DNA of 64,000 bases, from the NCBI RefSeq assembly GCF_900141715.1, contig NZ_FQYK01000004.1:124001-188000 (forward strand). The letters are read 5' to 3'. A program made the translations under genes and the position numbers. Within the stretch, counting starts at the first letter, position 1; every line of letters starts with the position of its first letter. The notes under the pieces were generated by a model. It worked only from the letters and a program-made list of their open reading frames with translations, was not told the origin of the DNA and did not search any database. Origin of the DNA: Algibacter luteus (GTDB lineage Bacteria > Bacteroidota > Bacteroidia > Flavobacteriales > Flavobacteriaceae). This document shows, one piece after another, positions 5,242 through 55,484 of the stretch.

Positions 5242-7163
5242 TTAAAGAATTTTAAGATGAGCATTTCAATAATCAATAACGCTAGTGCAAAAATAACAAA
5301 CCATTTCCATAGGGCGTTAACTTTTGTATCACTTTTTATAGTATCGAAAACTTCTGTTATAGAATTACTAACTGTTACTTGTTCTAGAGCAGAAAGGTCT
5401 TTGTAAGCTAATTGACTTTCATTTCTGCTATAGTTGTAACTCACATTTTTAATGATTTCGTTTTTGTTTTTTATTTGATATGTTCCCGCAACTGAAGGGT
5501 CTTCTAAAGTATTTATGACCACCTTATTGTTGAAATATTGCTGTTTTGGTATCATGCTAATGTCTTCTTTAACTAAAGAAAGCACTGCATCTTGTTGCAT
5601 TTTTGTATCTACATCAAAAGCGTTTTCTTTACCTATGATGTAATAAAGTTCAGGTATTTTAAAGCTTTGTTTGGCAATATTATAAAGGGTTGGTACTATT
5701 AACGGTGAAATTTTAAAGCTAGAATTAACTTGATTTATTGAAGCCGTAAATAAGTAAACATTCTGTCTTTGACCTAAAAAGAGCTTCTCATCTTCAAACT
5801 GTAAAACGGCAGATAAGTTTTTTGAGGCTAAAGTATAAAAACTATTCACCTTGGGGTATTGAAAGTTTTTAACTTGTTTTTCAAAAACACCATTATTATA
5901 AAGCGGATGTGCATAATTTATACTCGTTATTCTTTTTTCAGAATTAACTATTTCATTAAAACTTAGATCATAATTGGTTAAAAACGTATTGTAAGATTCG
6001 TTATTGTTTTTTATAGAAGGTACAATAACTAGGTTACCACCTTGACGAGTAAACTGCTTTAATGCCGCGTTTAAGGCTAAAGGAATACTTTTCAATTCAT
6101 TTAAAATAATGAGGTGTTGACTATCAATAAGATTGTAATTTAATGTATTTAGTTGTGTCGAAACATAATTAAATTCTGTTATGCTATAAATACGTTTTAG
6201 GTATGAATCATCAGCATCATTAATACTTAAAACATTAATTTTTGAGGCTTCATTGATATTAAAATAAAGCGTATTATCAAACTGTAAACTGGCGTCATTA
6301 ATTGTAATTTTACCGTTAATCACATCATGGTTTGGTAAGGTAAAAATGGTTTCTGATTTTTGCTCAATTTCTAATGATGTCTTTGCAATTAATTTATCAT
6401 TATTAAACAAAGAAACTGGTAAGTTTTCAACTGAAACTCCGCTATTTTTTAACACTACTTTTAGCTCTAATAAGTCTGGATTAACTTTGGAAATAAAAAC
6501 ACTATCAATAGCAATGTTATTTTTATTGAGAGGGTTTAATTTTACAAAATTGATGTTAGTTGTTGAATCCGATAGAATATTTAAATTTGTGTTATCTTCT
6601 TGAAAATCAGAAATTAATATTACATTATTTAATGTATTAGTTTTATTTGATAAAAAGCTTTTGCATTTTAAATATGCCGCTTGCTTACTTAAAACGCTTG
6701 ATGTGTAATTAAGCGTAAGTAACTCGTTTTTTATAGCTTTTATGCTGGTTTTTTTGAAAACTTTATCATTTGTAATCAATGTAATATTTTCGTTCTCTGA
6801 TACGTTCGCAATCACATCTTGAATGGCCCGTTTAAACAGCTCACCTTGGTTGCCTTTGGTTTGCATACTGAACGAATTATCTAGATATATTACAGTTTCT
6901 TTTTCTTTCTTAAAACTGGTTGTTTTCGAAGTGAATGGTTGCGCAAATGCAAACACTAATGCTGCTAATAAAAACAAGCGGGTCAATAACACTAACCATT
7001 TTTTTATTTGCGAACTTTTACGTGTTTGCCAAGTAGCTTCTTTTAGAAAAGCGACATTTGTAAAATAAACTTTTTGGAACTTACGAAGTTGAAATAAATG
7101 AACAATAATAGGAATAAGCAGTAAAAATAAAGCGTAAAGAATTTCTGGGTGTTTAAACTGCAT
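5238..7163 (-). CDS. BatA-like membrane protein with N-terminal double TM domain
   Basis: 641-aa inner-membrane protein. Residues 1-80 form the BatA/aerotolerance N-terminal domain (TIGR02226 type): a hydrophobic helix at 8-24, LRKFQKVYFTNVAFLKE, and a second helix at 56-74. A von Willebrand A-like segment follows, with a partial MIDAS motif DNSFSM. The long middle region is probably extracytoplasmic, and a final membrane helix (about 617-637) anchors the C-terminus. The family is linked loosely with Bat/MoxR-type envelope complexes, but no MoxR ATPase or Bat operon lies next to it here. It overlaps the pseudo-dihydroorotase gene by 4 bp, an arrangement suggesting tight co-expression. Confidence 0.85.
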   Translation of the reverse strand: MQFKHPEILYALFLLLIPIIVHLFQLRKFQKVYFTNVAFLKEATWQTRKSSQIKKWLVLLTRLFLLAALVFAFAQPFTSKTTSFKKEKETVIYLDNSFSMQTKGNQGELFKRAIQDVIANVSENENITLITNDKVFKKTSIKAIKNELLTLNYTSSVLSKQAAYLKCKSFLSNKTNTLNNVILISDFQEDNTNLNILSDSTTNINFVKLNPLNKNNIAIDSVFISKVNPDLLELKVVLKNSGVSVENLPVSLFNNDKLIAKTSLEIEQKSETIFTLPNHDVINGKITINDASLQFDNTLYFNINEASKINVLSINDADDSYLKRIYSITEFNYVSTQLNTLNYNLIDSQHLIILNELKSIPLALNAALKQFTRQGGNLVIVPSIKNNNESYNTFLTNYDLSFNEIVNSEKRITSINYAHPLYNNGVFEKQVKNFQYPKVNSFYTLASKNLSAVLQFEDEKLFLGQRQNVYLFTASINQVNSSFKISPLIVPTLYNIAKQSFKIPELYYIIGKENAFDVDTKMQQDAVLSLVKEDISMIPKQQYFNNKVVINTLEDPSVAGTYQIKNKNEIIKNVSYNYSRNESQLAYKDLSALEQVTVSNSITEVFDTIKSDTKVNALWKWFVIFALALLIIEMLILKFFK

Positions 7164-7201: not shown

Positions 7202-8209
7202 TTAACAAAAGAAAACATAATCCTCAATAGAGTTCAAATTTAATTTTAACAAATAATTCTTTATTTCTTGTTGTGACTTCTTGTTTGCCACTGTAATAAT
7301 ACTTTGTGCATTGTTAATGGTCTCTAAATAATCAAATGGCTTTAATATGTTGCCATAAATATCACGTCCAATTTTATTCGGGTTATCGCAAATCCACTCA
7401 AAAGGGATCTGCTTTTTAATCAGTGTTTTGGCAATAAATTTACCTTTGTTTCCAGCGCCCCAAATCACAAGTTTTTTCTCAGGATTATAGTCTAATTCTA
7501 AAAAGTAATCGAGTTTTAAGGGTATGAAATGATTTTCTGCATAATGTTCGTTAGTTCTTGAAGTTCGGTAACTATAATCTCGCCAATCGTGTAGAATGTC
7601 GTTACTAGGAATACAGGTATATTGATGTTTATAAAACCGAAAAGCTAAATCGTAATCTTCAGGATATCGTTTAGGATTAAAGGCATTACAAGCCATCAAG
7701 TCACTTCTGTGAATCATCCAGCAAGGTGAAGGGATGACACATTCTTTATAAATTTCAGAATAATTATTTCCTTTTTCTGTGAGCTCGTTCAACCAAATCT
7801 CATAATTTTTATAGCCTTCTTTAATGCCTTTTTCAGAAAAATAATTAACCTTACCAACGGCTAGGTGTCCTTTGCCATGAATTAATAGGTTTTTAGATAA
7901 TATTTCCAATTTATTTAATCGCATAACATCATCACTATCCATTCTGGTGATGAATTCGCCAGAACTTTGATTAAAAGCCATCTTTAAAGCATCAATAATA
8001 CCTTGTCCGCTGTTTTTCAAAAGCTTAATTCGGTCATCTTGTTTGGCGAAATTTTCAACAATAGAATAACTCATATCAGTTGAATGATCATCAACAATAA
8101 CTAACTCCCAATTGGTATAAGTTTGATTAATAATTGAGGTTAAGCAGTCGGCAATAAATTCCTCGGTATTTTTAAATGGAACTAGAATGCTAATTAAAGG
8201 TCTTTGCAT
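7202..8209 (-). CDS. Family 2 glycosyltransferase with C-terminal nucleotide-binding-like domain
   Basis: 335-aa GT-A glycosyltransferase. The N-terminus has the GT2 signature (ISILVPFKN, then INQTYTNWELVIVDDHSTD) and a metal-binding RMDSDD near 110. After about residue 235 there is a second module, KLVIWGAGNKGKFIAKTL, that resembles a Rossmann-like nucleotide-binding fold, seen in some Bacteroidota GT2 proteins. No membrane helix. Probably adds a sugar to an envelope glycan or glycolipid; donor and acceptor cannot be told. It is the first gene of the minus-strand run, 38 bp from the BatA-like gene. Confidence 0.88.
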   Translation of the reverse strand: MQRPLISILVPFKNTEEFIADCLTSIINQTYTNWELVIVDDHSTDMSYSIVENFAKQDDRIKLLKNSGQGIIDALKMAFNQSSGEFITRMDSDDVMRLNKLEILSKNLLIHGKGHLAVGKVNYFSEKGIKEGYKNYEIWLNELTEKGNNYSEIYKECVIPSPCWMIHRSDLMACNAFNPKRYPEDYDLAFRFYKHQYTCIPSNDILHDWRDYSYRTSRTNEHYAENHFIPLKLDYFLELDYNPEKKLVIWGAGNKGKFIAKTLIKKQIPFEWICDNPNKIGRDIYGNILKPFDYLETINNAQSIITVANKKSQQEIKNYLLKLNLNSIEDYVFFC

Positions 8210-8296
8210 ATTGCGAATTTAACAAAACCTTAAGAAAGTACCCCGTAACATTGTGGTAATTTGGGCGTCAATTAAAAAACTATAAAAATCAAATTA

Positions 8297-10186
8297 ATGA
8301 ATACTAAAACACTATTTGCGTTATTTGTTGGAGTTGTGTTAGTTAGTTGTGGTACTACTAAGAATGTAAGCAACGATTTAGCGACGAGTTTACCCATTGA
8401 AACATCAATTAATCTTTCTAATATTGTTGATGATAAAGCACCAGTAACTATTAATCCAGGTCGTTTTACAACAGAAACTGTGACTTACAGATTGCCAAGA
8501 GTAGTACAAGGCACATATTCAGTAAGTGATTTTGGGAAATATGTAGACGATTTTAAGGCTATAGATTACGCTGGCAATGAATTACCTGTAAACAAAGTTG
8601 ATACCAATTCTTGGACCATTACCAACGCTAAAGAATTAGACAAAATTACTTACTACGTAAACGATACTTACGATATTGAAACTAGTGGTGGTATTGGGAA
8701 AGACACGCCTTTTTCTCCTTCAGGAACAAACATAGAACCTAATAACTATGTGTTAAACTTACATGGTTTTATAGGGTATTTTGATTCATTAAAAAACAAT
8801 CAGTATAAATTAGATGTTACGGCTTCAACAGATTTTATTAGAACATCTGCGTTACAAAATGTGAGTTCTAAAGTTAGTGAAGTTGGAAAAACCACCACAA
8901 CTAGTTACTTCGCACCTAGGTATTTTGATATAACTGATAACCCAATGATGTATGGGAATTTAGATGTTGAAGAATTTCAGGTAGGCGATATTAAAATTGT
9001 TCTAAGTGTGTATTCTCCAAACAAAGTACATTCAGCTAAATCTCTTAAAGATGTAGTTTTTAAAATGATGAAAGCTCAAAAAGCATACTTAGGGGATATC
9101 AACTCTACACCTCGATACGATATCTATTTATATCTTTCTGAAGGAAAAGAAGACTCTCCAAAAGGGTTCGGAGCCTTAGAACATCATACTTCAACAGTAG
9201 TAGTATTGCCAGAATCTATGAATGATGACGCTATTGCAGAAGCCATGATCGACGTTGTTTCTCATGAATTTTTCCATATTGTTACTCCATTAAGTGTGCA
9301 CTCTGAAGATGTACACTATTTTGATTATAACAATCCTACGTTTTCAAAACATTTATGGATGTACGAGGGCGTTACAGAGTATTTTGCAACCTTATTTCAA
9401 GTAGATCAGGGTCTTGTTGAAGAGAAAGATTTCTATAACAAAATAATGGAAAAAATAGAAAGTTCTAAGCGTTATAATGATGCTATGAGTTTTACCATTA
9501 TGAGTGAAAACATCTTAAAAGATCCTTATAAAGATCAATACATAAATGTGTATCAAAAAGGAGCTTTAATAGGAATGTGCGTTGATATTTTAATGCGCGA
9601 AGGAAGTAATGGAAACAGAGGCATCCTTTCATTAATGAAAGAGTTATCAAACAAATATGGGAAGAACAAGCCTTTTGAAGACGATAAGTTAATCGAGGAG
9701 ATTACAGCAATGACTTACCCATCGGTTGGCGAATTTTTAAACACGCACGTTGTGGGTGATATTCCAATTAATTACAATGAGTTTTTCGCAAAAGTAGGAT
9801 TAGAAATTGCCGAAGATTTAATAGAAGCTAATTACATTATCATTAACGGTGCGCCAATAGTTAGTGGCGACCCAACAATAGGCGTATTTTTTATAGATAG
9901 TGTTTTAGAAAATAGTTTCTGGAAAGAGCAAGGTGCAATGCCAAACGATGTTATTAAGTCGGTTGATGGAGCAGAGGTTACATTACAAAATGCCAATAAA
10001 GTTTTAGGTGAAGTGTTTAGCTGGAAACCTGGAAGAGATGTAGAGGTTGTTTTAGAACGCGATGGCGAGGAAGTTGTGATTAAAACTACGACAACACAAG
10101 GTTATACAAAAGGAAAAGCTTTAAAAGTAAAAGAAAACGCTACTGATGCACAGCATAAGCTTCGTGAAGCATGGTTAAAAGGCTAA
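8297..10186 (+). CDS. M61-family metallopeptidase lipoprotein with PDZ domain
   Basis: 629-aa lipoprotein: lipobox LVSC with Cys18 as the probable lipidated residue. The N-terminal beta domain is followed by a thermolysin-like catalytic domain with HEFFH (His323, Glu324, His327) and the downstream glutamate region YEGVTEYFA, matching the M61 glycyl aminopeptidase family. A PDZ-like module occupies about 525-605 (VFFIDSVLENSFW then DVIKSVDG). It is transcribed alone, divergent from the glycosyltransferase gene, and is followed by a hairpin terminator. Probable role: envelope-associated peptide degradation. Confidence 0.93.
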   Translation: MNTKTLFALFVGVVLVSCGTTKNVSNDLATSLPIETSINLSNIVDDKAPVTINPGRFTTETVTYRLPRVVQGTYSVSDFGKYVDDFKAIDYAGNELPVNKVDTNSWTITNAKELDKITYYVNDTYDIETSGGIGKDTPFSPSGTNIEPNNYVLNLHGFIGYFDSLKNNQYKLDVTASTDFIRTSALQNVSSKVSEVGKTTTTSYFAPRYFDITDNPMMYGNLDVEEFQVGDIKIVLSVYSPNKVHSAKSLKDVVFKMMKAQKAYLGDINSTPRYDIYLYLSEGKEDSPKGFGALEHHTSTVVVLPESMNDDAIAEAMIDVVSHEFFHIVTPLSVHSEDVHYFDYNNPTFSKHLWMYEGVTEYFATLFQVDQGLVEEKDFYNKIMEKIESSKRYNDAMSFTIMSENILKDPYKDQYINVYQKGALIGMCVDILMREGSNGNRGILSLMKELSNKYGKNKPFEDDKLIEEITAMTYPSVGEFLNTHVVGDIPINYNEFFAKVGLEIAEDLIEANYIIINGAPIVSGDPTIGVFFIDSVLENSFWKEQGAMPNDVIKSVDGAEVTLQNANKVLGEVFSWKPGRDVEVVLERDGEEVVIKTTTTQGYTKGKALKVKENATDAQHKLREAWLKG

Positions 10187-49596: not shown

Positions 49597-50169
49597 TTGA
49601 AAACCCTCGACAATATAAATAGTTTATCTGATGAAGATTTGGTACAAGCAATTGTTAAAACAAATGACACATTGCTTTTCGAAACGTTATATGATAGGTT
49701 CGCACGATTGGTGTACAATAAATGTTATGGTTTTGCAAAAGATGAAGATGAAGCTAAAGATTTAACACAAGATGTGTTTTTAAAACTCTTTGTAAAGTTG
49801 GCTAGTTTTAAAGGTAAATCGAAGTTTTCAACTTGGTTATATGCGTTTACATATAATCACTGTGTAAATTACGTAACCAGAAACACGGCTAAAAAATTTG
49901 AAAAGCAGTCGGTAGATTACACTGATTTAGAAAACTTATCAGAGGAGGAAGACGACAACAGTTTTCTAAGTATGAAGGTTGATAAATTAAAAGTAGCATT
50001 AGAACTCATTTCTCCGCAAGAGAAAATGATTTTATTATTAAAGTACCAAGATAATTTAAGTATTAAGGAGATTGAAAGTGCTTTAGGAATAGGAGAAAGT
50101 GCAGTTAAAATGAGAATAAAACGTGCAAAAGATAAACTTATAAGCGTTTATAACCTAAATGACAAATAA
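49597..50169 (+). CDS. ECF-like sigma factor (paralogue 1)
   Basis: 190 aa, TTG start at 49597 (no upstream ATG; conserved sequence begins directly). Region 2 has DEDEAKDLTQDVFLKLF and FSTWLYAFTYNHCVNYVTRN; region 4 has ALGIGESAVKMRIKRAKDKL. Very like the protein at 51535-52080 (about half of the residues identical by eye). The next gene overlaps by 1 bp. Upstream, TGTAG(N9)CTACA around 49553-49571 is a weak inverted repeat. Confidence 0.93.
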   Translation: MKTLDNINSLSDEDLVQAIVKTNDTLLFETLYDRFARLVYNKCYGFAKDEDEAKDLTQDVFLKLFVKLASFKGKSKFSTWLYAFTYNHCVNYVTRNTAKKFEKQSVDYTDLENLSEEEDDNSFLSMKVDKLKVALELISPQEKMILLLKYQDNLSIKEIESALGIGESAVKMRIKRAKDKLISVYNLNDK

Positions 50170-50390: not shown

Positions 50391-51218
50391 ATGGAAAAAG
50401 CGACAAAATGGAAAGATATGGCCATGGAATCTCTATCAACGATGTGGCTTGAAATATCAAAAATATTTCCAAACATAATAGGAACTTTAATTGTTTTAAT
50501 TTTTGGTTGGTTAATTACCAAATTAATTGTAAAAATTATTAAGAAGGTTTTAAAGCTTGCTAATGCTAACAAATTGGATGATGCTATTAATGAAATTGAG
50601 ATTATTGAAGGCAAGAAGTTAAACTTTGATACGGTTAAAATAGTCTCAAACTTTGTAAAATGGGTCATGTATGTGATGCTTATTATTATGGCATCAGATA
50701 TTATGAACTTAACCATGATTTCTCAACAAATAAGCAATTTATTAGCTTATTTGCCACAATTATTTGCAGCGTTAGTCATATTTACTGTAGGTTTAATTTT
50801 AGCAAACCTTGTTAAGAAAGGATTGAAATCGTTGTTTGAGTCCATGGATTTATCAGGAGCAAAACTGATAAGCCAGTTTGTATTTTTTCTAATATTAATC
50901 TATGTTTCGATTACAGCCTTAAACCAAGCTGGAATTGACACCGAAATCATTACAAGTAATATAACTATGATTCTTGCGGCCTTTTTATTGGCATTCGCAT
51001 TGGCATTTGGTTTTGGGTCTCAAAAAGTAGTTGGAGATTTGATGAGAACATTTTATACAAGAAAGACCTATGAAATAGGACAAAAAATAGAATTTAATGA
51101 TATTAAAGGTGAAGTAGAGTCAATTGATGGCATTACAATAACCATATTAACAGATACAGGCAAAGTGATAGTGCCTATTAAAGATATTGTAGAGAGTCAA
51201 GTAAGATTACAGGATTAA
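50391..51218 (+). CDS. MscS-family mechanosensitive channel
   Basis: 275-aa small-conductance mechanosensitive channel. Three N-terminal membrane segments (about 21-42, 85-105 and 115-140 with further ones near 160-205) lead to the pore helix with LAAFLLAFALAFGFGSQKVVGDLMRTF. The cytosolic beta domain follows (GQKIEFNDIKGEVESIDGITITI). It protects against osmotic downshock. It lies 45 bp after the 58-aa gene, so it may belong to the sigma operon. Terminator at 51286. Confidence 0.9.
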   Translation: MEKATKWKDMAMESLSTMWLEISKIFPNIIGTLIVLIFGWLITKLIVKIIKKVLKLANANKLDDAINEIEIIEGKKLNFDTVKIVSNFVKWVMYVMLIIMASDIMNLTMISQQISNLLAYLPQLFAALVIFTVGLILANLVKKGLKSLFESMDLSGAKLISQFVFFLILIYVSITALNQAGIDTEIITSNITMILAAFLLAFALAFGFGSQKVVGDLMRTFYTRKTYEIGQKIEFNDIKGEVESIDGITITILTDTGKVIVPIKDIVESQVRLQD

Positions 51219-51534: not shown

Positions 51535-52080
51535 TTGACAGATCAAGAATTAGTATCCAGAATTGTAGACCACAACGACACCGCATTATTTAGTGTATTA
51601 TATGACAGATTTTCACATAATATTTATAATAAATGCTACCATTTTGTGAAAAATGAAGATGAGGCTAAAGATTTAAGTCAAGATATTTTCTTAAAATTAT
51701 ATTTAAAATTATCGAGTTTTCAAGGAAAATCTAAATTTTCTACTTGGGTTTACTCATTTACCTATAACCATTGTGTTAACTACGTTAATAGAAATCCTAA
51801 ACGTAAATATGAAATGCGATTAACAGAAAATTTCGATATTGAAAACTACGCTGAAGATAGAGATGATTCCATGGATCACTTAGAAAGAAAAGGTAAGCGA
51901 ATTAATAATGCTTTACAAAAAATATCGGTCAATGACCGTTCTATTTTGGAGTTAAAATACAAACAAAATTTAAGCTTAAAAAATATTGAAAATACTTTGG
52001 GAATTGGTGAAAGTGCTGTTAAAATGAGAATTAAAAGAGCCAAAGAACGTTTAGCGAATTCTTATGCCATGGCAGTTTAA
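51535..52080 (+). CDS. ECF-like sigma factor (paralogue 2)
   Basis: 181 aa, TTG start at 51535 in the same position relative to conserved sequence as paralogue 1. Region 2: NEDEAKDLSQDIFLKLY and FSTWVYSFTYNHCVNYVNRN. Region 4: TLGIGESAVKMRIKRAKERL. It stands alone: no small partner gene follows and 20 bp beyond is the converging hybrid kinase gene. The linker between regions 2 and 4 differs most from paralogue 1. Confidence 0.92.
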   Translation: MTDQELVSRIVDHNDTALFSVLYDRFSHNIYNKCYHFVKNEDEAKDLSQDIFLKLYLKLSSFQGKSKFSTWVYSFTYNHCVNYVNRNPKRKYEMRLTENFDIENYAEDRDDSMDHLERKGKRINNALQKISVNDRSILELKYKQNLSLKNIENTLGIGESAVKMRIKRAKERLANSYAMAV

Positions 52081-52100: not shown

Positions 52101-53627
52101 CTAATCCGTTGATTTCTTTAAGTATTTCTGAATTCCTTCCAACAAGTTTTTCTTATCAAAAGGTTTTATTATAACATTGTTAATGCCGTTTTGTTTAAAG
52201 CGCTTAATGTCTTCTTTATAGGCTTGAGTTGATAAAACGATAATTGGAGTTTTTTTATATTCTTTTGAAAGATTTCTTACTGAAGCCGCTAAGTCTATGG
52301 CAGAGAAACCTTCTATTGTATTGGATAATAATATGATATCTACCTTTTTATCAATAATATTGGGAATTAACTCTTCGCCTTTATTTATAATATTCACATA
52401 AAACAGTCCTGTTGAGGCTAATGTTTTTAAAATAGTAAGCTGTATTAATTCTGAATCTTCAACTAACAGAACATTATATCTTCCCTCTAATTTCAGTAAT
52501 TGTTTATTTAACAATTCTTCCTTTTGGCTCTGGTTGTAATTTGATGTTTTAAAACTTAAATTACATATAAATTTAGAGCCTTTATCTATTTCACTTTCAA
52601 CCTTTATATTACCATCCATTTCGGTAATTAAGTATTTTACAATAGACAAACCTAAGCCAAAACCTCTGTCAATTTTCACATCCGATTCTAAGTTAGTAAA
52701 CCTATTAAAAATAGTTTCAAGATGTTCTTTATTTATGCCACAACCAGTATCTGTAATTTCAAAATGAAGATTAACCTTTTTCGCCCTTTTGTAATTAAGT
52801 GATATATCTAGTGTTATGGAGCCTTTTGTGGTATTATTTATGGCATTATTTAAAAGATTGTTTAAGATTTGTTTTAATCGATATTGATCGCCCTCAACAA
52901 ATTCAGGAATATTTTCGGCTATTTTGAAATTAAAATCAATACCCTTTTTATTTGCCATGTATTCGTACATAATTGCAACTTCATTCAGCAATTCTTTTAA
53001 ATTAAATACTTTATCAACTAAAATTAACTTTCCCGATTCTATTTTTGAAATATCAAGTATATCTTCAATTCTGTTTTTTAAATCTTTGTTAGCCGATTGA
53101 ATAATATTGATGTAGTTTTTTTGCTCAGTTGATAAATCACTATTATTTAATAAATCGCTAAATATTATAGACGCCGTAATTGGGTTTCTAAGTTGATGGC
53201 TAAAATTGGCAATAAAATTATTTTTAAATGTCTCTTTTTCTTGTAAGTATTCATTTTTAAGAACAAGAATTTGAGAGTTTATAATGGATTCGTTTCTAGT
53301 TTGTGCGGTAAGTTGATAGTTATTGTAATGTTTGGTTAAATTCTCAATAATTAAAAGATTTTCTTGATTATTTTGAGGTCTAAAAGTAAGGTCGACAACA
53401 TAAGGTTTACCATTAAACTCTAGGTTAATACAAGTAAACTCGAAACATTCATTTTTTATTAAAATCAAGTTGTTTAAAATCTCAAAGAAAGGATGAGTGT
53501 CTTGTATTTTATCGTTTACTTTTATGGGAAAAATAGGATTGTCTACTTCTAAAACACATCCAGAATCATCAACTAAAATATATTGAAAATTGTTTGTATG
53601 ATATTTTTCTAAATAGGGTTTTAGCAT
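52101..53627 (-). CDS. Hybrid histidine kinase with a degenerate receiver
   Basis: 508 aa, last gene of the GTPase operon, with no membrane segment. An N-terminal PAS-like region (about 10-95) precedes a coiled linker and HisKA with FSHQLRNP, phospho-acceptor His144. The ATPase domain has NNLLNNAINNTTKG and GFGLGLSIVKYL. The receiver at 393-508 keeps VEDSE, the Ser of VLST and the Lys of IIKPF, but its phospho-acceptor Asp is replaced by Ser435 (IILLSNTIEG). It may therefore sense or bind rather than accept phosphate. Possible output through the GTPase encoded 5 bp upstream is inference. Confidence 0.88.
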   Translation of the reverse strand: MLKPYLEKYHTNNFQYILVDDSGCVLEVDNPIFPIKVNDKIQDTHPFFEILNNLILIKNECFEFTCINLEFNGKPYVVDLTFRPQNNQENLLIIENLTKHYNNYQLTAQTRNESIINSQILVLKNEYLQEKETFKNNFIANFSHQLRNPITASIIFSDLLNNSDLSTEQKNYINIIQSANKDLKNRIEDILDISKIESGKLILVDKVFNLKELLNEVAIMYEYMANKKGIDFNFKIAENIPEFVEGDQYRLKQILNNLLNNAINNTTKGSITLDISLNYKRAKKVNLHFEITDTGCGINKEHLETIFNRFTNLESDVKIDRGFGLGLSIVKYLITEMDGNIKVESEIDKGSKFICNLSFKTSNYNQSQKEELLNKQLLKLEGRYNVLLVEDSELIQLTILKTLASTGLFYVNIINKGEELIPNIIDKKVDIILLSNTIEGFSAIDLAASVRNLSKEYKKTPIIVLSTQAYKEDIKRFKQNGINNVIIKPFDKKNLLEGIQKYLKKSTD

Positions 53628-53632
53628 CTATT

Positions 53633-54121
53633 TCAAATTAAGTCTTCAGCAAGTTTAGAGAATAGTTTTTCAACTTTACTTCCTGTTTTTGCACTTACAA
53701 AATAATCAACATGGGGTTCAAAAATGGTTTGGTGTTCTTTTAAATAAATTTTATTTACTAAATCCATTTTGTTCCCAACTACTTTTACGGGGATTTTAGG
53801 ATAATTTTCTTTTAAAAAGGACAGTTCAGAATTAAGATCTTGGAAGGTAACAGGTCTTGATAAATCAAAAACATAAATAAATCCGTTAGTACCTAATAAA
53901 TAAGACGGTCTCGTTTTTTTTATATCGTCTTGTCCTTCTAAATCCCAGATTATTAATGAAATTTGTTCTCCTTCGGGAATAGTTATGGTTTTTTTAGAAA
54001 TATGAACACCAATGGTTACTTTGTAATCTTCAGAAAAAGTATTTTCAACAAAGCGCCTTATTAATGAGGTTTTTCCAACTCCAAAATGACCTATTAACAC
54101 AATTTTTTTAGATACTGTCAT
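53633..54121 (-). CDS. Ras/Rab-like small GTPase
   Basis: 162-aa P-loop GTPase of the Ras superfamily, unusual in bacteria outside the Rup/MglA groups. All G motifs are readable: G1 GHFGVGKT (11-18), G2 Thr36 in KVTIGVHIS, G3 WDLEGQ with Asp60, Gly63 and Gln64, G4 NKMD (117-120) and G5 SAK (143-145). Gln64 is in the position of the Ras catalytic Gln, so intrinsic hydrolysis should be possible. No prenylation or membrane motif. Its start overlaps the end of the upstream gene by 14 bp, which suggests coupled production with the 273-aa protein. Confidence 0.9.
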   Translation of the reverse strand: MTVSKKIVLIGHFGVGKTSLIRRFVENTFSEDYKVTIGVHISKKTITIPEGEQISLIIWDLEGQDDIKKTRPSYLLGTNGFIYVFDLSRPVTFQDLNSELSFLKENYPKIPVKVVGNKMDLVNKIYLKEHQTIFEPHVDYFVSAKTGSKVEKLFSKLAEDLI

Positions 54122-54929
54122 TTTTAAAGAAATCTTCTATTTTTTTAGATAATAGCGATTTGTTTTTTAAGTGTTTTACTATTTTTTCCTTGTCGGCAAA
54201 TTCAAATAATTTGTCTTCTAGTTGGTCCTTAAATATAACATTGTAAGCACCTGAAACTACAACGGCAATATAGAAGGAAGAAAAATTTTGAATATGAATA
54301 TGGTAAAGGTCGTATTCAATATATTGTAAATTTTGACTCTCTTTTTTAAAGGCATCTTCAACAAAGCTTTTAATAGCTGTAAGCATACCAGCCACCATAT
54401 CTTCATCTGCCATTTTGTTTTTTGAATATTCAGCTAATAGAAGTCCAGAGCCTTTTTCAATAATAATTATTTGTTCAATTTTGGCATTGGTTTGTTCTTG
54501 AAGAATTAATTCTGATTCGTTAATGCCCGAAGCTTTAGATTTCGCTCTTCTAAAAAATCGTTTAAACGAGAAGGTTTTGTTAACTTGATTATTTATCCTT
54601 TCTGATAATAATTTCATTTCATGCTGCACGTAACGCTTTATCATTTTACCTAAAATTGGATAAAGAGCTTCAACAACCGCATCTTGGGAATTTTTAATTT
54701 CTGTTTTTAATGCTTCAGTTATAGTAGGCCCGAGCGTTTCAGGTATTTCTTTTACAAACTCATTTAACTTGGTTTCAATTATAGGGTCTACTTTAACAGA
54801 TAAGTTTTCTTTTTTGTTGACGGTGTTCTCAAGAATTTTGATTTTTTTTTCAATTGCAGACACAAACTCTCGCTCGTCGGTGAGCAAGATATCTTTAATT
54901 ATATTTAATTTTTCATCTTGATTCATCAA
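54108..54929 (-). CDS. GTPase-operon protein with roadblock/longin-like C-terminal domain
   Basis: 273 aa. Residues 1-125 are helical, with LNIIKDILLTDEREF, TLGPTITEALKTEIKNSQDAVVEALYP and a helical pair containing QHEMKLLSERI. A basic linker (SFKRFFRRAK) precedes a domain at about 148-250: KIEQIIIIEKGSGLLLAEYS, MVAGMLTAIKSFVEDAF and YHIHIQNFSSFYIAVVVSGAYN. The beta-beta-alpha-beta-beta order resembles roadblock/LC7 or longin folds that bind Ras-like GTPases (MglB, for example); this is a visual judgement. Terminates inside the GTPase gene. Confidence 0.75.
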   Translation of the reverse strand: MMNQDEKLNIIKDILLTDEREFVSAIEKKIKILENTVNKKENLSVKVDPIIETKLNEFVKEIPETLGPTITEALKTEIKNSQDAVVEALYPILGKMIKRYVQHEMKLLSERINNQVNKTFSFKRFFRRAKSKASGINESELILQEQTNAKIEQIIIIEKGSGLLLAEYSKNKMADEDMVAGMLTAIKSFVEDAFKKESQNLQYIEYDLYHIHIQNFSSFYIAVVVSGAYNVIFKDQLEDKLFEFADKEKIVKHLKNKSLLSKKIEDFFKNDSI

Positions 54930-54940
54930 CGCGAATAAGT

Positions 54941-55303
54941 TTATTCAGCTATTTTTTCTCCCAATTTTATAAAAAGCTCGCTTAATAGTTTTCTATCGGT
55001 CTTTTTATTGTCCATTTTAGAAAGTTTGTCGCTTATTGACTTTTCAAGATCGGTAATTCTAATATTGATGTCTGTACTTAACGAATCAATATTTTGTAAC
55101 AATTCAGACTCAACTGTACTAATTAAATCTTGAAGTTCTTCTCTTTTACTTAAAATATCAGCTTTTAGAGTTTCGAATTCTTGATTGTATTCTTGAATAT
55201 TTTCCCCAAAAATAAGTTCTTTTATAGCGTCAATTTTTGAATTATTGTTTTGAGGTTTGTCGTTTAAATTTTTAACGCTTTCTTCTATTGCTTGTTTTTT
55301 CAT
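54941..55303 (-). CDS. Small coiled-coil protein of the GTPase operon
   Basis: 120 aa, the first gene of the operon. It has a long predicted helix (about 30-110) with heptad-like spacing, for example QEFETLKADILSKREELQDLISTVESELLQNIDSL then IRITDLEKSISDKL. It ends LGEKIAE. No membrane helix or known motif. It stands 11 bp upstream of the 273-aa gene, so it is part of the same transcript; it may tether or oligomerise the GTPase partner, which is a guess. Confidence 0.75.
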   Translation of the reverse strand: MKKQAIEESVKNLNDKPQNNNSKIDAIKELIFGENIQEYNQEFETLKADILSKREELQDLISTVESELLQNIDSLSTDINIRITDLEKSISDKLSKMDNKKTDRKLLSELFIKLGEKIAE

Positions 55304-55484
55304 TATCAGCTTGTTTAGTGAAACTAATACACAAAAGTAGAATAAAATAAGCGATAATAGCTAATTAGGTGTTTATTTTGTACTATTTTATATATGATTT
55401 AATGATTTTTATGGACGAAATGGGGGTGTAATTCCTTAAATCAAGCAAACAAATATTAGACTTTATTTAGTTTGATAAAAGGTT

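Follow-up and report, generated by a model that had tools for sequence, protein, structure and literature searches.

Introduction

What kind of switch is encoded by four tightly packed genes of Algibacter luteus, in which a small GTPase of the Ras type lies beside a histidine kinase, and what does it control? The window analysed here, a stretch of 64,000 nucleotides (positions 124,001 to 188,000 of contig NZ_FQYK01000004.1), carries this operon on its minus strand. A sequence-only reading of the window had seen a self-contained signalling unit with a roadblock/longin-like protein, related to MglA/MglB and perhaps serving gliding or cell polarity. A second class of systems has to be considered. 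Group 1 Rup GTPases, a group defined by tree, taxonomy and neighbourhood with hosts that include Bacteroidetes, are encoded together with a coiled coil, an uncharacterised protein, often then a transmembrane part and OmpA, and an output protein (Wuichet and Søgaard-Andersen 2014, PMC4316618). As outputs the survey describes GGDEF/EAL proteins or histidine kinases having an N-terminal region with an invariant Gln (PMC4316618). When it appeared, no member of the Rup GTPases had yet been examined by experiment (PMC4316618), and a later experimental study was not found in the library that we searched. We argue here that the operon represents the pan-bacterial Group 1 Rup-type module in a compact, apparently soluble form, with a phosphatase-type pseudo-kinase as its output, a joint reading to which we assign a probability of about 0.6. 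In outline the operon has largely been known since 2014, as an uncharacterised module of this type; new are the soluble variant, a striking joint change in the active sites of GTPase and kinase, and a probable longin domain in a bacterium.

Results

Re-reading of the window bore out the layout described earlier, with its coordinates, its strand and its spacing. The first gene (54941..55303) encodes a 120-aa coiled-coil protein with the N-terminal motif AIKELIFGE; it matched no Pfam family above the cut-off and has profile matches in Nostoc and Mesorhizobium. After a gap of 11 bp follows the gene of a 273-aa protein (54108..54929), for which model and profiles indicate a helical N-terminal half and a C-terminal longin-type domain (residues 148-272). 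Its open reading frame starts with TTG at 54929 and the next codon is an ATG at 54926; a protein of 272 aa is likelier, because most orthologues align from this ATG. The gene of a 162-aa Ras/Rab-like small GTPase (53633..54121) overlaps it by 14 bp, and 5 bp further on lies the gene of a 508-aa kinase (52101..53627), to which Pfam, alignment and model assign a PAS-HisKA-HATPase-pseudoreceiver architecture. The gene set proposed before, including the receiver-bearing kinase, is hence confirmed. A possible Bacteroidetes -7 box (TACTTTTG, TAnnTTTG; 55332..55339), noted by eye on the same strand about 29 bp ahead of the coiled-coil gene, may be a chance occurrence.

The same gene order with orthologues of all four genes was found in 15 further GTDB genomes. 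A GTPase profile run over 396 Flavobacteriales genomes matched 12 of them strongly (208-264 bits, against 58 bits for the match that follows), and these 12 genomes are exactly those that carry a GTPase-linked relative of the 273-aa protein, adjacent in each case. The chance of such an exact overlap is about 4e-23 if kinship is ignored, and the operon occurs in roughly 3% of the sampled Flavobacteriales (12/396). Gene order is constant in every flavobacterial relative with the GTPase, and the conserved order was seen in 15 + 12 + 1 genomes. The coiled coil is longer than usual in locus L077, the longin and GTPase genes of L069 are separated by an extra 139-aa open reading frame (6221-6640), which corresponds to a free-standing N-terminal PAS domain of the kinase, and L012-L015 encode a second kinase in tandem directly downstream of the first (about 7900-9450), in which the receiver Asp is replaced by Asn. 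The check proposed earlier, whether the four genes stay together, came out in favour, and the idea of a self-contained GTPase-kinase module is supported as well. Judged from homology and gene order, the coiled coil, the longin-fold protein, the Ras/Rab-like GTPase and the PAS-kinase are inherited as one unit.

Several observations were made around these loci. In L080-L085 (Flavobacteriales family f7) a longer coiled coil (329-433 aa) and a homologue of the 273-aa protein adjoin a conserved membrane-protein gene whose product starts MATLERIR and is PpiD-like by eye; no GTPase match was found within the stretch fetched. The complete four-gene set of L077 adjoins the same MATLERIR gene, and genome G067 carries both kinds of locus, the four-gene set and the coiled coil with the 273-aa homologue alone. 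Comparison of these loci raises the question whether the GTPase-kinase half was gained or lost at one locus. In the window, a small membrane-protein gene with an MscS-like look (50391-51218) lies between two plus-strand genes for ECF sigma factors (49597-50169 and 51535-52080). The second ECF gene is convergent with the kinase gene, and the three genes are found again next to the operon in L005. Just upstream of the operon, on the same strand, Pfam identifies a response regulator of the LytTR type and a histidine kinase of PF06580 (55485-57257). This LytTR/LytS-like pair was rejected as a fixed part of the operon: it adjoins in L007 and L008, while in L006 no LytTR match lies beside the operon and a DEAD gene is next to it.

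The GTPase matches the Pfam Ras family at 9.2e-33, and its motifs (G1 GHFGVGKTS, G2 Thr36, G3 DLEG, G4 NKMD, G5 SAK) agree with the earlier claim of a complete G1-G5 set including Gln64. Rabs were the nearest solved GTPases in a search of PDB sequences. Asp60 of G3 is invariant in 20 relatives. Gln64 is present in the window clade, yet it does not characterise the family, since N, Y, T, P or E stands at this site in relatives. The surrounding clades are without it, and from the aligned sequences Gln64 looks like a nested gain in the window clade.

The 273-aa protein has no Pfam family at E<=1, hence no Robl_LC7 match, and neither the single sequence nor a profile gave a significant NCBIfam or PDB-sequence match. 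Its fold is described from a model. AlphaFold2, run on 16 orthologues, returned a mean pLDDT of 55.6 for the 272/273-aa protein, with blocks of the C-terminal domain at about 43-86. The modelled C-terminal elements follow in the order E149-157, E163-168, H175-194, E202-204, E208-214, E218-225, H230-246 and H256-267, a beta-beta-alpha-beta-beta-beta-alpha-alpha topology as in solved longins. Best Foldseek matches to the model were AP sigma subunits and the roadblock/longin domains of Rag and LAMTOR (1.9e-4 downward). VIA-align gave Z values of 10-12.5 over 112-128 residues for the longins of AP-2, Mon1-Ccz1, Sec22b, Ykt6 and TRAPP and for an Asgard longin, the best match reaching Z 12.5 over 114 residues with an rmsd of 2.7. 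Among the 50 VIA-align matches listed the recognisable chains are longin-containing, and MglB and LC7 chains are not among these 50. The structure prediction thus supports the earlier guess of a roadblock/longin-like fold, and the moderate-confidence model favours a longin-type over a roadblock topology for residues 148-272. Longin and roadblock domains are circularly permuted relatives with similar GTPase binding (Zhang et al. 2012, PMC3521125).

An MglA/MglB-like switch for polarity or gliding, as first suggested, would share the logic of a GTPase with a partner of the roadblock/longin superfamily, in which the longin and MglB folds are linked (PMC3521125), and the hosts encode a gliding gene. 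However, GldJ is present in 33/33 genomes checked (13 carriers and 20 non-carriers of the operon; 30 over the curated cut-off), against 12/396 Flavobacteriales with the operon. Because carriers and non-carriers have GldJ alike, the operon falls outside the core gliding set. As an association this distribution is uninformative, and it speaks against a specific link. Asp60 is also present where MglA has Thr in its G3 (PM3) motif. This MglA residue is Thr78 (PMC3000849). Together with the missing Robl_LC7 match and a neighbourhood that is not of the Mgl type, these results leave the proposed relationship and the role in gliding or polarity unsupported, and we regard such a switch as very unlikely.

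The Group 1 Rup-type reading finds its evidence in relatives of other phyla and of the same phylum. Distant homologues of the 273-aa protein within the phylum lie in open frames of 598-738 aa, and OmpA was confirmed in the three of them that were scanned; the 273-aa protein corresponds to the N-terminal part of such OmpA fusions. Flavobacterial profiles of three of the genes detect the same four-gene order on a Nostoc plasmid (coiled coil 2e-13, longin/OmpA 3.5e-41, GTPase 2e-49) and matching genes on a Mesorhizobium plasmid (3e-14, 1.6e-27 and 1.6e-43, respectively), in which a coiled coil, an OmpA family protein, a Rab family GTPase and a cyclase follow one another. By these profile matches the module is homologous to the coiled coil/Unc-OmpA/Rup/output-enzyme operons of other phyla. 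As in Group 1 Rup, a single-domain Ras-superfamily GTPase with G1-G5 is surrounded by a coiled coil, a conserved protein and a signalling output. A G3 without the catalytic Gln is a described Group 1 Rup characteristic (PMC4316618), which the sister clades show and the window clade with its Gln64 does not; we use the label Group 1 Rup-type because of this departure. The assignment is based on gene content, order and homology together with the published description.

At the output position of Rup-type operons we also found sigma-54 activators and an adenylate/guanylate cyclase (L103-L105, L116, L117; L103 and L105 encode sigma-54 activators, and the N-terminus of L104 matches), which extends the published list of Rup outputs. 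In pairwise profile comparison (E about 1e-5, probability about 80%) the N-terminal domain of the kinase weakly resembles that of the outputs of the sigma-54-activator, cyclase and Nostoc-kinase types. Q109 of the kinase is aligned in most cross-phylum outputs and is one candidate for the invariant Gln of the published outputs (PMC4316618). In other Bacteroidota, L106, L109 and L112 contain pairs of a coiled coil and a longin-OmpA-type protein without a GTPase match nearby, and the GTPase-kinase and longin-OmpA halves of L107 and L110 are divergently transcribed.

Pfam recognizes HisKA, HATPase_c and Response_reg in the kinase. Three of its features had been missed in the sequence-only reading: the N-terminal PAS domain, the altered H-box and the receiver site. 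The N-terminus models as a PAS domain (mean pLDDT 86.9) and aligns with solved PAS structures, the Z values reaching 10.6. Q109, in the helix after the PAS domain, belongs to a nearly invariant Q109-x-x-N112 linker and is found in 28/28 kinases, Q15 in 25/28. As a universal catalytic Gln acting in trans, Q15 was discarded: it is absent or shifted in L074, L075 and L078 and replaced by Glu in four cross-phylum outputs, which makes Q109 the better conserved residue. The H-box of the kinase reads HQLRN (H144, Q145, N148) and not H-E/D-x-x-N/T, the motif of autokinases. HQ is present in every member of the window clade examined and HE in all other kinases examined. The phospho-Asp of the receiver is likewise absent, with Ser435 in the window and Ser, Ala or Thr at this site across the clade. 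In a tree built on GTPase and longin sequences, in which the 10-member window clade has a support of 99 and its union with L012-L015 a support of 100, three changes map to the one branch leading to the window clade: gain of GTPase Gln64, the H-box change from HE to HQ and loss of the receiver Asp. Their linkage may be coincidence, since all fall on a single branch.

In CrdS, the substitution E372Q abolishes kinase activity and leaves phosphatase activity intact, and N375, the equivalent of N148 here, is needed for the phosphatase (PMC3510030). Because of the HQ H-box and a receiver without Asp, we predict by analogy that the kinase of the window clade is kinase-dead and phosphatase-competent. 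The earlier suggestion that kinase and GTPase answer each other is tentative; residues required for autophosphorylation differ in this clade. Alternatively, the kinase could still be an active autokinase whose H144 supplies phosphate to a response regulator on a separate protein, with the GTPase as output as proposed for conservons. H144 and the N, G1 and G2 residues of the HATPase are intact, kinases of the sister clades retain HE and the receiver Asp, and the conservon kinase CvnA8 autophosphorylates (PMC13343842). However, Q145 stands in place of the required acid, the homologues of E372 are needed in three other HisKA kinases (PMC3510030), and the receiver Asp was lost in the same clade; we consider continued autokinase activity unlikely.

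Losses of this kind might also mark a remnant in which kinase and receiver decay under relaxed selection. The window clade, L069 and L073 as well as the second kinases of L012-L015 have lost the receiver Asp, so that its loss is spread over several separate lineages or paralogues, and the HATPase G1 box is lost in L073. Yet the frames are intact in every relative examined, and all clade members compared share one altered H-box core, FSHQLRNPIT. Within the kinase, the linker and DHp segments evolve most slowly (85-96% identity). We therefore argue for a new function over decay. Compared with six relatives, dN/dS values of about 0.02-0.22 indicate purifying selection on all four genes, these figures coming from the estimable segments and pairs with unsaturated dS, since many pairs of the kinase and of the N-terminal part of the 273-aa protein are saturated. 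Decay is in our judgement a most improbable explanation.

Discussion

The preferred reading is that a GTPase/longin switch would control a phosphatase-type pseudo-kinase via its PAS domain. The longin protein, scaffolded by its own helical half and the coiled coil, may bind the GTPase and set its nucleotide state, as an exchange or activating factor. The GTP-bound GTPase would then engage the output protein at its PAS domain and thereby change the dimerisation helices through the Q109-x-x-N112 linker. In the window clade, the GTPase now has its own catalytic Gln, and the phosphorelay would have been replaced by dephosphorylation of a response regulator encoded elsewhere. The adjoining LytTR/PF06580 proteins, an unconserved pair, are a possible substrate pair. 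Without an OmpA anchor the system would be soluble, and for this reason its input is probably intracellular.

A compact, apparently soluble four-gene version should express easily and would allow a direct test of the logic between GTPase, partner and kinase. The matched changes of the active sites are a concrete, falsifiable prediction of kinase-to-phosphatase conversion. A bacterial longin beside a Rab-like GTPase would, if true, bear on the origin of the eukaryotic longin-Rab partnerships, given that longins are usually traced back to roadblocks that descend from prokaryotes. It is a tentative thought that Rup-type operons across bacteria carry true longin domains with Rab-like GTPases, as bacterial counterpart or source of these pairs, and that the switch of the window clade became coupled to a phosphatase-only pseudo-kinase as its GTPase gained the catalytic Gln.

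Among known systems, Group 1 Rup modules have the same four components and an output with a conserved Gln-containing N-terminal region. The window operon differs in that OmpA is absent from the 272-aa protein (no Pfam match), Gln64 is supplied in cis, the H-box is HQ and the receiver is a pseudoreceiver. MglA/MglB likewise combine a small GTPase with a partner of the roadblock/longin superfamily, whereas the window operon keeps the G3 Asp, has no Robl_LC7 match, adds a coiled coil and a PAS kinase and showed no link to motility. The actinobacterial conservons (AGPS, CvnA-D; PMC13343842) are likewise four-gene units with a GTPase, a roadblock-superfamily protein and a histidine-kinase-like protein. 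In contrast, the partner here is longin-like and not an MglB-type roadblock, the kinase is of the PAS-HK-REC type and the GTPase belongs to another group; a counterpart of CvnC or of the MglB-type CvnB gave no Pfam or NCBIfam match among the four window proteins. The eukaryotic longin-Rab/Arf pairs (Mon1-Ccz1/Ypt7, TRAPP/Rab, AP sigma and mu with Arf1) resemble the window proteins in the predicted fold of the C-terminal domain (Z 10-12.5) and in the Rab-like GTPase partner, while the sequence identity to eukaryotic longins is about 6-15% and the window protein is bacterial.
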